NCBI GenBank assembly: GCA_030747505.1
Contig: JASLKQ010000033.1
Coordinates: 1-33,196 of the forward strand
DNA: 33,196 nt
Reading direction: 5' to 3'
Source of the DNA: Verrucomicrobiota bacterium
GTDB lineage: Bacteria > Verrucomicrobiota > Verrucomicrobiia > Limisphaerales > UBA1100
The first letter of the stretch is position 1. Each line of letters starts with the position of its first letter. The translations under genes and the position numbers were made by a program. Positions 28,187 to 33,196 of this stretch are shown here, piece after piece. The notes beneath the pieces were generated by a model that saw only the letters and a program-made list of their open reading frames with translations, was not told the DNA's origin and searched no databases.

Positions 28187-31100
28187 TCACTCAAACCCCA
28201 GCACACTCCGTTTTTGAACTCGATATCGCTCATGTTGAAAGACTGCCTCCAGCCATTCTCTCTGCTTGTTTCCCGCCCGGGAACGTGCGTCCCGCAATCT
28301 GTTACTGGCATCGGCCAAGGCTTTGATGGCCCCCGATTGAAGGGACTGCTTTGCCTTGTCGGTGACTCCTGCATCCTTGAGCGCCTGCGTGAGTGTTTTC
28401 TTCTCATTTTCGTTTTTGGTGAGTGCCTCCGCCGCACTCTTTTCCTCGGTTTCTACCCGTTTTAGTTCGATCTCGCGGGCGGTAATAGATGGGCCCCAGC
28501 GTAAATATTCCACAGACAACTCGCCCTTCAACTTGTCCAACTCAATAGCTGTTTCCTGTTTATAGTGCGCAACCAGTTGTTGTGCCTGCAACCAGCCTTC
28601 CAGAAAACCCAGCAGCTTCCCCTGATCCTCATCAAGTGGCTTCTTTAAAGCTGCCTTGGCAGCTTCCGATTGCACGGAAGCCCGGCCTGCGGTTACAAAT
28701 GCTGCCTCGGTCTGCTTGAATATCTGTTCACGACGCTTCCACTCATTTTCCCTATGCTTTACCAGCGCTTCCTCTTGCAAGAGACTGTGTTGCTCACGCT
28801 TCATCGTATTCTCGCTATCCTCAAGATTGCGCGCCGCCTCATATTTCTTGCCGATTCCCACACCATACTCACCAATGCGTCGGTTGTGCTCCCCCAAGGC
28901 CTGATTCAAAGCGTTCAATGCCCGGCCCATTTCGCCCTTCGCCTGACGAGCTTTATTGGATCTACCCGTTCGTTGACGAGTTAGATCCCCGGTAATATTT
29001 TTCAATTCGGTCTGTCTTGACTTTTTAACCGAAAGAAATTTTTCCAGTAACTTGATGTCTCCCTGAGTCTGTTTCCATTCTTCCTCCATCCGACTTGAGG
29101 CAGTCTGGTGGTTCGCGAAGTCATGTAACTTGGACTGGTATTGCCCAATCAAACCATTCAGTTTCTTTCTTAACGTCGTAACAGCAGATAAATCGTGGGC
29201 CATTTGTTCCTGCTCCTCTTTCAAGCGCCCCGCCAAACCCTTGTCTTCAGGTGCTTTTTTGGCCTGAGCAGCCCATTGCTCAAGCCGGGCTTTGGTAGCG
29301 TTTAGCTTCCGAAGAGCCGGCAATTCTTGTTTGTCCACAAATTCATAAAGAGTTCTACGTGCAGCCTCCAGCAAGTCACGCCGCCTGGTATGGTCGCGCA
29401 ATGCATTGGTCTTCTTTTGTTCAGACTGCCGTAATTTACCCTGATAAGAACGCAACTGCCCTTCCCAGTCACGGAGATGGCGGTCAACTGATTGCAAATT
29501 AATAACAGAATCCAATCGATATTGATCGATAGCCGCTTCCTTCCCGACTAACTCATGGTAGAGAGCTGCTTTAACCGAATGTTCAGCACGTAAATTCAGT
29601 ACTTTTTTTTCGGCCGGCTTCAATCGGGTGCGCAGGATACTCGCCTCTTGCGCAACAGCCTGCTCGAATTGCTTTTTCCGGGCATTATACCGAACCAAGG
29701 CAGTGTCTAATCGACGCTTGGCTTCATCACGGCGGCGACGGGCTTCGTCGCGAGCGGGGGTATACTGATTAAATAAATCCCGCGCTCGATTCCTCCTGGT
29801 TTCTGAATACTCAAGCGCCTTACGGTCACGGGAAGCTGTCGCATAAATTTCAACCGGCCTAAAGTCGCCTTTATACAAGGCCCGCACCTTTGTGTAATTC
29901 GAATTACGATCCTTGGCATTTTTATCATACTGTTCCAGCTGTCTTGCGCGATCAGCCTGAAATTTGGAGAAACTTTCGGTGTTCTTTTTTTTCGTTGCCA
30001 GAGAAATTTTATTTTCTGACTCCACCGCCGCTTTGGCCTCAGTTAGTCGGCGCACCTTTGCCTCATGAGCCTCTCTCAACTTAGGGTTAAAATAATGTGT
30101 ATTCACTTTCAGCCAGTTATCAGCCACAGCATAGTTGCTCTGGCTTTTTGCCAAATCAGCCCTCGCTTTCCGCACCGAAACCTCCTGTTGACTCAAACCA
30201 ACCAGAATTGTTTTCACCTCCTTCTGGATGGCAACATGTTCCTTCTCTAGCCGGCGCCATTTTTCGTCCAGCTGAGCAAGATATACTTTCGCCTCAGAGC
30301 GGGCCTTAAAAACACTGTCAAAACCACCCTGTCCGGCAACGATTTGCCGCTTATGTTCTTCGTCCATCGAGGCCCAGGTTGACCACGCCCTCTCGAGAAC
30401 GTTGGGTTCAGTCACATATGATATTTCATGAATCTCCCCAGACTTGAGTCTCAAATCACGAAATGGCGTCTGGTTAGCCACCAGGATTGATCCATCCCAC
30501 TCGAGCTTACGTAGACGAATCTCCGTGCCCAGTTGCGTGCGGACAATCCACCTCTCCCTGGCTCTGGTTGGTTTCTGGAGAAACACTGCGGCAGCTTGGG
30601 AACCTCCCTGATATTTACGTGAGCCAAACAGAAGAGTTTGAAGAGTAATGACATTGTCCCTAATTGAACTAATCTCCCCTTCCTGGAAATCACCTCCAAC
30701 CAGCAACACTCCCTCTCTCCCCACCTTGCCAGAACGAATTCGATCAGCCATCGGCAAGGAAAGTGGATGAAAGAAAATAGCCGAAGCATTGACCGTCGAA
30801 AGGCGAATTCCGGCAGGTTCCCCAACGAAATGCACTCTGCTTCCAGTCAATGATTCGAGCGGGTGCGCTATGTAGCTTCCATTCCATGCCAAGGCTCCAG
30901 CAGCAGGAATGGCCGGGGGTGCCTGGGGAAGCGGCAAGTCTGTCACTGCGCTAAGGGATGTCCATGACAAACCCGGGCCACTCCATTCAAGTTCAAGAAT
31001 CGCATAACTGGCAAGGTTCAGGTATTCCAGCCGGAAAGCGTGTACCCCTTGATCAAGTCGAATGGATTTAGTAGCCCGCCTATAAGAGTGCTCAGCAGGA

Positions 31101-31555
31101 GTTGAAATAATTTCCTTACCCCCTATAAATGCACGCACTCCATCATCCGAGCCCAACCTGAAATGGTAGTTACCAGAACGAGGTATATTGAGTTTGCCTT
31201 CAAAAAGAATTGCTCCGGGAGTATTGCCCAATCTACGAACTGTAAGGTAGTGCCGACGAATATTGTCGATGGAACTGGGATCGAGTGCAGTTTCATCGGG
31301 AAAATCACTATGATTGCCCCGCCAGATTCGTGTCCTGACTTCACTCAAACCCGGGCGAATTGAAGGCCCAGGATTAAGGCGTACACGGATCAAATCCTTC
31401 CATTTAAACGCCTTCCCGGCGACCTGAACCCCTTTTGAATCAATCCTATCAAGATTACCCGATTGCAACCGACCATCTCTGGTCCGAACCGTTGCTGAAT
31501 ATGAAAGAAAAAGATTTGCCGTAACCCAACAAGCAATAACGGCAATCCTGAACAT
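28187..31555 (-). CDS. Giant exported PA14/coiled-coil protein
   Basis: A 1122-residue exported protein. After a signal peptide (about 1-20) there is a small beta module (22-60, VRTRDGRLQSGNLDRIDSKG) and a PA14-like domain at about 75-205 (GAILFEGKLNIPRSGNYHFR, GSDDGVRAFIGGKEI), a carbohydrate-binding fold. Two more beta modules with an LSm-like feel follow at about 282-325 and 335-380. From about 410 to 1110 the sequence is almost continuously charged and helical, with heptad-like Leu/Ala spacing, so a very long coiled coil is predicted. No catalytic motif is seen. It starts 6 nt after the toroid gene and is probably co-transcribed with it. A structural or surface-spanning role is likely. 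Confidence 0.8.
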   Translation of the reverse strand: MFRIAVIACWVTANLFLSYSATVRTRDGRLQSGNLDRIDSKGVQVAGKAFKWKDLIRVRLNPGPSIRPGLSEVRTRIWRGNHSDFPDETALDPSSIDNIRRHYLTVRRLGNTPGAILFEGKLNIPRSGNYHFRLGSDDGVRAFIGGKEIISTPAEHSYRRATKSIRLDQGVHAFRLEYLNLASYAILELEWSGPGLSWTSLSAVTDLPLPQAPPAIPAAGALAWNGSYIAHPLESLTGSRVHFVGEPAGIRLSTVNASAIFFHPLSLPMADRIRSGKVGREGVLLVGGDFQEGEISSIRDNVITLQTLLFGSRKYQGGSQAAAVFLQKPTRARERWIVRTQLGTEIRLRKLEWDGSILVANQTPFRDLRLKSGEIHEISYVTEPNVLERAWSTWASMDEEHKRQIVAGQGGFDSVFKARSEAKVYLAQLDEKWRRLEKEHVAIQKEVKTILVGLSQQEVSVRKARADLAKSQSNYAVADNWLKVNTHYFNPKLREAHEAKVRRLTEAKAAVESENKISLATKKKNTESFSKFQADRARQLEQYDKNAKDRNSNYTKVRALYKGDFRPVEIYATASRDRKALEYSETRRNRARDLFNQYTPARDEARRRRDEAKRRLDTALVRYNARKKQFEQAVAQEASILRTRLKPAEKKVLNLRAEHSVKAALYHELVGKEAAIDQYRLDSVINLQSVDRHLRDWEGQLRSYQGKLRQSEQKKTNALRDHTRRRDLLEAARRTLYEFVDKQELPALRKLNATKARLEQWAAQAKKAPEDKGLAGRLKEEQEQMAHDLSAVTTLRKKLNGLIGQYQSKLHDFANHQTASSRMEEEWKQTQGDIKLLEKFLSVKKSRQTELKNITGDLTRQRTGRSNKARQAKGEMGRALNALNQALGEHNRRIGEYGVGIGKKYEAARNLEDSENTMKREQHSLLQEEALVKHRENEWKRREQIFKQTEAAFVTAGRASVQSEAAKAALKKPLDEDQGKLLGFLEGWLQAQQLVAHYKQETAIELDKLKGELSVEYLRWGPSITAREIELKRVETEEKSAAEALTKNENEKKTLTQALKDAGVTDKAKQSLQSGAIKALADASNRLRDARSRAGNKQREWLEAVFQHERYRVQKRSVLGFE

Positions 31556-31561
31556 GGTAAC

Positions 31562-32602
31562 TCAACGCTGATAGAGAGGCAGGTAATGATAAGGCATTGC
31601 CAGCATGGTGGTGAAAACCGCCGTGGTAAAAATCGGCCCCACTCCACCTCGCCCGGTGGCGTCCCACCGGTAATGCGCCCCTTCCTTTCGGACACTTTTG
31701 GCCACTGTTGAAGAGACGACTTTATACCACTTTTCCCATGTATCTCCCCCAATCATGTATTGGGCCGGAGCCGCATAAAAACTACCGTATACATACCATT
31801 CCTGACCCAGTCGATGATTGGCTACTAGGTACTTTGAGCCTTTAATCACCATGGGATCATCATACAAACCACACACTTGAAGGGAATAAATGGCGGCGGC
31901 TGTACGGGCAAAGCCCGGGGATGAACCGGGTTGATAACTAAAACCCCCACTACTGGAATGATTGCAGGCTTTCACATATTTAACAGCGTTATCAATTGTC
32001 CTTTTAGGTACATCAATACCAGAATTTTTTGCGGCTCTCAAAGCTACTACCTGTAACACGGTTACCGAAATATCCGCGTCCCGCACCACCGGACGGTAGC
32101 GCCATCCTCCCTGGCTATTTTGACTGGCGATAATCAGTTTAATCGCCCGATCCAGCTTGGTGCGAATGACCGGAGATTGCGTCTGCCCATAGAGTTCAGC
32201 CAAGGCAATTGTGGCAATCCCGTGTGCATACATGTACTGACCACTGGCCCGATTACCATAGATACCATCAGGCCCAATTCGGTTCAGAAGATAATCCATC
32301 CCCTTCTTCACCACTTTACCATAGGGCCCTTCCCCTGGAAGGTTGCCTGCCGCCTGAAAGGCAATGAGCGTATAGCCGGTAATTGCATCGGGATGACGTC
32401 GTTCTTCAGAGCTTTCCCCCCACGACCCGTCTGGCTTCTGCTTGGAAGCCAAATATTTCAAAGCTCCCTCAATGTACTTTTCATGGATTTTGGAAACCTT
32501 AACATTATCCCGGGGACGCGGCTTAGCCTTCACCCCAGGGGTCGCTGCAGGCAGCCAAATAATTGAAGCAATAAAAAGACTGAAACAAATAAAACGAATC
32601 AC
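31562..32602 (-). CDS. Exported squalene-cyclase-like alpha/alpha-toroid protein
   Basis: A 346-residue exported protein of the prenyltransferase/squalene-oxidase repeat family. A GTG start at 32602 with AGGA 9-12 nt upstream begins a signal peptide (about 1-20, PAA-TPG). Repeats with the typical Q-x2-D/N-G-x-W/G-G pattern are visible (SKQKPDGSWGE, ASQNSQGGWRY, NHSSSGGFSYQ). The catalytic DxDD of cyclases is not seen, so it is probably not a terpene cyclase but a binding toroid, as is common in Planctomycetota and Verrucomicrobiota. It lies 18 nt downstream of the partial Gln-rich gene and 6 nt upstream of the coiled-coil gene. Confidence 0.85.
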   Translation of the reverse strand: MIRFICFSLFIASIIWLPAATPGVKAKPRPRDNVKVSKIHEKYIEGALKYLASKQKPDGSWGESSEERRHPDAITGYTLIAFQAAGNLPGEGPYGKVVKKGMDYLLNRIGPDGIYGNRASGQYMYAHGIATIALAELYGQTQSPVIRTKLDRAIKLIIASQNSQGGWRYRPVVRDADISVTVLQVVALRAAKNSGIDVPKRTIDNAVKYVKACNHSSSGGFSYQPGSSPGFARTAAAIYSLQVCGLYDDPMVIKGSKYLVANHRLGQEWYVYGSFYAAPAQYMIGGDTWEKWYKVVSSTVAKSVRKEGAHYRWDATGRGGVGPIFTTAVFTTMLAMPYHYLPLYQR

Positions 32603-32620
32603 AACTTTGTCCTAAAAAAA

Positions 32621-33196
32621 TTATTTCTTCGGCCTGTCCGAGAGACGTTTAAGAAACTGTTCGACTAAAGTACTGTACTCCTGCGGCGTCTTGGATTTGG
32701 ACGATTGCAACAAGGCCTCGCGCTCACGCTGCGGAAGGTTTAAACGACTTCCCAAACCATCTGTAGACCCCAATTTGCCATCCTTACCACCAGATCCCTG
32801 CCAGTTACCAATTTTGCCATCACCCTGTTCGCTGGGCTGCCCCTGCCCTGGTTGCTGTCCGGGTTGTTGGCCCGCCTGCTGGCCCGGTTGCTGGCCCGGT
32901 TGCTGGCCCGGTTGCTGACCTTGTTGCGCCATTGAAAGGGCGGCAGCAGCTTGAGCAAGTGCCTGCTGGGCCTGTTGAGACGCCTGCTGCGAAGGCACTG
33001 CGTTATTGGCCATGGCTTGTTCAATTGCTTCAGCTAAATCTCCCACAGCCTGATCAAAAGCCTCCTGTGCATTAGGCGGCAATTGGCCTTCCAAACCTGC
33101 GGCCAAAGGCTCAATCAATTCAGAGGCATCCTCCAAGGGACCCGCTGCCTCTTGGGCAGCCTGTGCGGCCTGTGCGGCCTGTACGGCCTCCAGCAC
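32621..33196 (-). CDS. Gln/Ala-rich protein, C-terminal part (cut by window edge)
   Basis: The last 191 codons of a protein whose frame runs open to the window edge; the GTG at the very edge is probably not its real start. The visible part is Ala/Gln-rich helix (EAVQAAQAAQAAQ, QQASQQAQQALAQAAAAL), then a Pro-Gly-Gln-Gln repeat (91-121), and a basic end with LNLPQREREALLQS and YSTLVEQFLKRL. This end is typical of the large DUF4175-like membrane proteins found beside MoxR/BatA genes in these phyla, but that is an inference. It is the first visible gene of the operon with the toroid and coiled-coil proteins. Confidence 0.7.
   Translation of the reverse strand: MLEAVQAAQAAQAAQEAAGPLEDASELIEPLAAGLEGQLPPNAQEAFDQAVGDLAEAIEQAMANNAVPSQQASQQAQQALAQAAAALSMAQQGQQPGQQPGQQPGQQAGQQPGQQPGQGQPSEQGDGKIGNWQGSGGKDGKLGSTDGLGSRLNLPQREREALLQSSKSKTPQEYSTLVEQFLKRLSDRPKK
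32834..32926 (-). repeat. PGQQ-coding tandem repeat
   Basis: A low-complexity stretch encoding about six copies of Pro-Gly-Gln-Gln within residues 91-121 of the Gln/Ala-rich protein, built on a 12-nt unit (GGTTGCTGGCCC on the + strand). Slippage could change its length between strains. Confidence 0.8.

Follow-up and report, generated by a model that had tools for sequence, protein, structure and literature searches.

We analysed a run of three open reading frames (ORFs) at the right-hand end of a Verrucomicrobiota sequence of 33,196 nt (the window), presumably from a marine genus, which is the whole of contig C180 of genome G000 (3.46 Mb in 253 contigs). The ORFs lie on one strand and encode a Gln/Ala-rich helical protein, an alpha/alpha toroid and a protein with a PA14 domain and a long helical stalk (Table 1). 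An earlier note, made from the sequence alone, had read them as one operon for an envelope-spanning or surface assembly of non-catalytic parts. The common strand and the gaps of 18 and 6 nt were found again in the ORF coordinates. The predicted co-transcription is supported by this spacing and by the gene order of relatives; scans for promoters and terminators gave hits no more numerous than in shuffled sequences. We found that the three genes very probably close a Bat-like MoxR/VWA operon at its 3' end.

The Gln-rich frame stays open to the final base of the contig and full-length relatives in the same family have 994-1425 aa (1274-1425 in genus g5), so the window holds the 3' fragment of a longer gene. 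Its Gln/Ala-rich composition stands (Q 19%, A 16%). The earlier description was thus confirmed in part, with the Gln-rich ORF corrected from a whole protein to the last 191 codons. Contig C144 of the same genome ends with 957 codons of a Gln gene, probably the 5' part of the gene in the window, and this piece together with the open frame rules out a complete gene here. The two pieces add up to 1148 codons, fewer than in genus g5, and a repeat-rich piece is therefore likely to be absent. The Gln protein has an N-terminal hydrophobic segment resembling a signal peptide. We also considered whether it arose by the splitting of a DUF4175 protein, as the C-terminal half, since type-B systems (see below) have one long DUF4175-like gene. 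Its C-terminal profile gave no match to that 1018-aa protein (locus L048) and a weak one in L185 (23 bits), so such an origin is no more than possible.

Gene order and the upstream MoxR/Bat core

Gene order was read from 48 loci of the toroid of the window and its orthologues in the order (type A), scored with profiles built in this analysis. L046 and L091 are one place and were counted once; the cut locus L009 stands outside the 48, and its genome (G001) is among the 43 toroid genomes given below. In five members of the same family (G017, G019, G009, G013 and G010) the three genes close a longer run. As far as the contigs reach, it reads MoxR, DUF58, BatA with VWA, a second VWA/GATase-like membrane protein, DUF4175, Gln-rich protein, toroid and PA14 protein. 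Twelve relatives carry the run on a single contig. BatA lies upstream on the same strand and stretch in 12 of the 48 loci, seven of them in genomes of the same family and five in families f8, f13 and f37.

G000 itself carries the probable upstream part on C144, which was found by a DUF4175 search. It encodes MoxR (AAA_3, PF07726, 212 bits, L083; MoxR AAA_3 also in L041), an adjoining DUF58 protein (PF01882, 151 bits), BatA (PF07584, 66.9 bits; VWA_2, 56.2 bits) with a DNSYS metal-ion-dependent adhesion site (MIDAS) motif and three transmembrane (TM) segments, a VWA2-type protein recognised by an analysis-built profile and DxSxS only, and DUF4175 (PF13779, 40.5 bits, cut-off 27.3), followed by the Gln gene. 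DxSxS is present in DUF58, BatA and VWA2 of this genome, and the TM pattern fits VWA domains that would face the periplasm. The MoxR, DUF58 and VWA genes that the earlier note had envisaged upstream are therefore present, both in relatives and in the same genome, which contradicts an unrelated upstream region. No BatD or TPR (BatC/BatE) Pfam match was found among the genes scanned, and for this reason we call the system Bat-like and place it outside the strict bat operon.

The gene upstream of the toroid could be assessed in 45 loci, L038, L090 and L093 being limited by contig ends. In 35 of these, from 12 families, the Gln gene adjoins the toroid gene (34 by script, plus L119, a 'no' of the script counted as 'yes' on reading). 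A PA14-type gene lies within 50 nt of the toroid gene in 20 of the 48 loci and farther away in 14; it was not found in the other 14, two of which have less than 300 nt of downstream sequence. Because its presence is patchy, the PA14 protein was dropped as a core member. Judged by gene order, the Gln protein and the toroid form the core and the PA14/coiled-coil protein is accessory. The proposed set of three thus holds for the Gln and toroid genes, which are not separate in most relatives, and fails in part for the PA14 gene.

In many families the run is split. The VWA2-DUF4175 pair was found in all 20 stretches fetched around DUF4175, and all five genes from MoxR to DUF4175 in 12, the other eight being cut by contig ends; the toroid was present in none of the 20. 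The Gln gene lies elsewhere in the genome for nine of the ten genomes whose toroid has no Gln neighbour.

The toroid and DUF4175 are retained together even when unlinked. We searched 196 genomes of the order, with toroid A delimited by a natural gap (E 6e-128 versus 2e-57) and DUF4175 by a threshold of E 1e-25. Toroid A was found in 43 genomes, DUF4175 in 42 and both in 38, against 9.2 expected; in 24 of the 38 they are on separate contigs. A control, the neighbouring transporter gene of the window, was found in 67 genomes and shared with 15 of the 43 toroid genomes (14.7 expected). Counted by family, 15 have the toroid and DUF4175, two the toroid only and one DUF4175 only.

A second toroid (type B), 30-42% identical to type A, is widespread. 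We counted 22 type-B loci, 20 fetched and two (L048 and L049) from G000 itself. Nineteen adjoin a DUF4175-like gene, the exceptions being L049, L146 and L149. The L048 locus of G000 holds a whole second run parallel to the first, in the order MoxR, DUF58, BatA, VWA, the long DUF4175-like gene (1018 aa), a thioredoxin-like protein and the toroid. Outside the order, six of the 288 genomes of a phylum search pass 1e-60, one of them G000, and four of the other five toroids lie in Bat/DUF4175 neighbourhoods. Together with the type-B loci, this suggests that such systems repeatedly include a toroid partner in this phylum.

Both type-B loci of G000 have further features. The L048 run also encodes two proteins of no known family. 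In L049 the toroid domain lies C-terminally in a Ser/Ala-rich protein of 972 aa that begins with a hydrophobic segment; its gene is preceded by genes of 307 and 138 aa that are ExbB-/ExbD-like by length and sequence impression.

Fold and invariant residues of the toroid

The toroid matches Pfam SQHop_cyclase_C (46.9 bits, cut-off 26.1), and its AlphaFold model has a predicted local distance difference test (pLDDT) score of 88.8. Squalene-hopene cyclase 2sqc came first among the VIA matches listed (Z 28.2, root-mean-square deviation 2.7, 281 aligned). The top Foldseek match was AprG, labelled transaldolase, a single-domain toroid with unrelated chemistry; GH76 mannanases and sugar epimerases were other toroid-enzyme matches. 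At 8-20% identity, these matches speak for the fold only and not for function. A PDB sequence search with the toroid profile gave partial, repeat-level matches only, and a limited literature search did not find the mechanism of AprG. Helix order and Q-x3-G-x-W (QW) motifs give six outer-inner hairpins. The N-terminus is hydrophobic and signal-peptide-like.

DxDD is absent inside the toroid of all 48 type-A and all 22 type-B sequences. Its sole regular-expression match falls in the Asp-rich N-terminal tail of one type-B frame, outside the toroid. Pfam, AlphaFold, VIA and the motif scan agree on a squalene-cyclase-like toroid without DxDD, as first described. The GC[GA]EQ thioester motif was likewise found in none of the 48 and none of the 22 sequences, and with no GCGEQ in these 70 a thioester (TED/A2M) protein was ruled out.

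Type-A orthologues across the order are 54-88% identical to the toroid. Conservation was counted over 46 of them, leaving out L038 (a fragment) and L044 (X residues); alignment A1 omits L038, L044, L090, L093 and L098. Y125, H127, R168, Y169, D177, Y223, Y272, Y276 and W313 are identical in the 46 orthologues and in the 22 paralogues. These, with Q55, E136, Q161, W167 and T327, are the polar or aromatic residues conserved to at least 95% in both types. In prenyltransferases and cyclases, the N-terminal ends of the inner helices form the active-site end. With the QW-motif residues Q55, Q161 and W167 left aside, 10 of 11 of the conserved residues lie near such ends, a zone holding 34% of positions; with them included, the count is 10 of 14. 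H127 and D177 are invariant and no Cys is among the residues common to both paralogue groups, the zinc site of the protein prenyltransferase beta subunit, which has an alpha-subunit partner, being made of Asp, Cys and His.

Such conservation suggests that the invariant residues have a real job, and the toroid is probably a functional core partner with a true binding pocket. The earlier statement that all parts look non-catalytic does not fit these residues, which stay unchanged even from one paralogue group to the other, nor AprG as the top fold match; its observation that the terpene-cyclase acid motif is lacking was correct.

The PA14 protein and other features of the window

The PA14 domain was detected at residues 118-195 (PF07691, 45.6 bits, cut-off 24). 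In the model of the 1122-residue protein (mean pLDDT 72.8, predicted template-modelling score 0.33), beta modules are predicted at about residues 20-61, 281-327 and 336-380, PA14 at about 69-200 and a near-continuous helix of about 700 residues at 412-1119; residues 204-278 have pLDDT below 50. The PA14 head, helical stalk and three beta modules of the earlier note are therefore seen in Pfam and in a model of moderate confidence. Among solved PA14 structures, 6qdi is closest in sequence (profile E 2.3e-34), a likeness and not proof of glycan binding. The N-terminus resembles a signal peptide and falls below the hydropathy threshold used.

Across the order, identity of the PA14 protein drops to 21-24%. 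In several families the homologue lacks the PA14 part, its alignment starting only at about residue 224. A Pfam scan of the beta-module region of homologues gave nothing above cut-off. A further locus of G000 (L050) encodes a 509-aa paralogue of the beta-module region with no PA14 match. In several relatives a CitMHS transporter gene lies directly 3' of the PA14 gene.

In the window, a tRNA gene borders the run just downstream and is outside the system. Two tandem leucine-rich-repeat proteins with identical signal-peptide starts sit between the PA14 gene/tRNA-Lys and the CitMHS gene. Farther away, two adjacent proteins each have an N-terminal GYF_2 domain, and one of them matches Planctomycete cytochrome c (PSCyt1) above cut-off. 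A sulfatase gene amid sugar-acid genes perhaps points to the use of sulfated or uronic polysaccharides.

Table 1. Positions of the genes discussed, in the window (C180) and on other contigs of G000
Feature	Contig	Position	Strand	Remarks
Gln/Ala-rich helical protein gene, 3' end (191 codons)	C180	32621..33196	-	C-terminal profile 95 bits
Single-domain alpha/alpha toroid, 346 aa, predicted secreted	C180	31562..32602	-	GTG start, AGGA 7 nt upstream; no DxDD; invariant polar/aromatic residues
1122-aa protein, probably accessory	C180	28187..31555	-	Beta module, PA14, two beta modules, ~700-residue helical stalk
tRNA-Lys(CTT)	C180	28058..28133	-
Leucine-rich-repeat protein	C180	27321-27917	+
Leucine-rich-repeat protein	C180	26865-27269	+
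Two GYF_2 proteins	C180	23177-24547	-
Sulfatase	C180	12679-14367	-
UxaC	C180	4004-5419
IlvD/Edd	C180	1238-3004
Type-B run (L048)	C216	680-15246	+
Type-B toroid (L049)	C207	10068-12986	+
Paralogue of beta-module region (L050)	C110	6604-8133	-

Interpretation and relation to known systems

The best reading of the sequences is that the toroid would act in the periplasm, binding a ligand or working as an enzyme, as the partner of a MoxR/VWA machine. MoxR proteins with VWA partners remodel clients or insert metals, according to the available text of PMC13036017, and the BatA-type VWA domain of BB0173 faces the periplasm, according to that of PMC5700661. From this literature, the TM segments and DxSxS motifs of G000 and the signal-like N-termini, we put forward a machine in the inner membrane that would be driven by ATP and carry a periplasmic rod and a toroid with a pocket. 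A cytosolic MoxR ring with the DUF58 (VWA-like) adaptor would perform the ATP-driven work. BatA and the second VWA protein, with MIDAS domains toward the periplasm, would relay it across the inner membrane together with DUF4175. The Gln-rich protein would be a periplasmic rod or tether presenting the toroid, a dedicated periplasmic partner whose conserved pocket would hold a specific ligand or do chemistry on it; the PA14/stalk protein would be an optional anchor. By analogy with NorQD and its client, the machine might load, mature or remodel the toroid in a complex.

We hold this explanation as a whole tentatively, at somewhat under an even chance. That the toroid is a client of the ATPase, an analogy, is possible and rather doubtful. 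A bolder form seems somewhat unlikely to us: that this is a MoxR/VWA machine of a new kind, serving as its dedicated client a secreted toroid that has an undescribed active or ligand site, and that it is kept with DUF4175 and Gln-rich envelope rods throughout Verrucomicrobiota, a single cell having duplicate, parallel A and B systems. The earlier interpretation survives in its envelope assembly and in the MoxR/VWA genes upstream, and gives way on the fixed three-gene set and on the absence of catalysis.

Several points weigh against our proposal. With MoxR cytosolic and the toroid apparently secreted, a direct contact of the NorQD type is out and the action would have to pass through the membrane. 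Ten of the 45 assessable toroid loci, in three families (f26, f38 and f53), have no Gln neighbour, so the two genes need not be tightly co-expressed. The genomes belong to one order and are related to each other, which overstates the Fisher value for the toroid-DUF4175 overlap (2e-30); the argument is therefore carried by the counts per family and by the control. One genome, 94% complete, has the toroid and no DUF4175 match (G121), and two, 92-93% complete, have DUF4175 and no toroid (G014 and G015); several exceptions are incomplete genomes, and these three are not easily explained in that way. The position of the pocket, deduced from QW motifs and the succession of helices, is itself a prediction, and the binomial values for the clustering of conserved residues (1e-4 for 10 of 11, 0.004 for 10 of 14) are indicative only, the tested zone having been chosen after the residues were seen. 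Finally, the ends of C144 and C180 have no common 15-mer, so the join in G000 is drawn from relatives.

The best-surviving alternative is a passive envelope-spanning or surface scaffold. The Gln rod, the toroid and the PA14/stalk protein would then have structural roles, and the MoxR/Bat proteins would do no more than fold or assemble them. The long helices of the PA14 protein, the low-complexity Gln rod and the lack of any catalytic motif of known toroid families would suit it. We consider it unlikely, because the PA14/stalk protein is often absent or cut down to its beta-module part and is far more divergent than the toroid, whose polar residues do not vary even between paralogues. We also think it unlikely that the toroid is instead a secreted enzyme of non-terpene chemistry, with the operon as its maturation or delivery system. 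The fold matches span many chemistries, and H127, R168, D177 and five Tyr are invariant near the usual active-site end; however, no known catalytic motif is present and the low identity of those matches speaks for fold only.

Three unrelated same-strand genes brought together by chance are highly improbable: the inconstant PA14 gene would fit, but the Gln-toroid order kept in 12 families and the co-retention of toroid and DUF4175 refute this for the Gln gene, the toroid and the Bat core, the PA14 gene excepted. A squalene/terpene cyclase or hopanoid enzyme beside Bat genes by chance, as the 2sqc and SQHop_cyclase_C matches might suggest, is scarcely credible and was rejected for lack of DxDD in any of the 70 toroids, the more so with one toroid domain rather than two, a signal-like N-terminus and Bat/DUF4175 linkage inside and outside the order.

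Our proposal, in which the toroid is a periplasmic partner of the MoxR/VWA machine, matters for Bat-type MoxR operons in general. Here a putatively secreted partner with invariant residues is kept even when the genes scatter. The toroid is a concrete, purifiable protein, and its ligand could reveal the substrate of a MoxR/VWA envelope machine. It also cautions against calling toroids without DxDD inert. Our literature search, with subscription papers and preprints outside its range, found no publication describing a toroid in MoxR/Bat operons.

Known systems resemble this one in part. The clients of NorQ/NorD, RavA/ViaA and CbbQ/CbbO are cytosolic or membrane enzymes. Those systems likewise combine a MoxR-class AAA+ ATPase, VWA partners and a dedicated client, whereas the conserved partner here appears to be secreted. 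Squalene-hopene cyclase and type II terpene cyclases share the alpha/alpha toroid and Q-x3-G-x-W motifs; the present toroid differs in being single-domain and apparently secreted, in lacking DxDD and in having its own conserved residues. AdvA of Acinetobacter baumannii, critical for cell division, also has an annotated DUF4175 region and TM helices, a likeness by description only, and no MoxR, Bat or toroid context is described for it in the available part of that paper (PMC7481262). The Bat (Bacteroides aerotolerance) operons of Bacteroides, Leptospira and Borrelia likewise have MoxR, DUF58 and a double-TM BatA with a MIDAS VWA domain in one run, and a periplasmic VWA domain as described for BB0173 would fit here. 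Leptospira biflexa with bat genes deleted showed neither an oxidative nor a growth phenotype, according to the available text of PMC3557215. In place of BatD and TPR proteins, which had no match in the genes scanned, the present run has DUF4175, the Gln-rich rod, the toroid and the PA14/stalk protein. The broad class, a Bat-like MoxR operon, is thus ordinary; the strictly kept, apparently secreted toroid is what is unusual.

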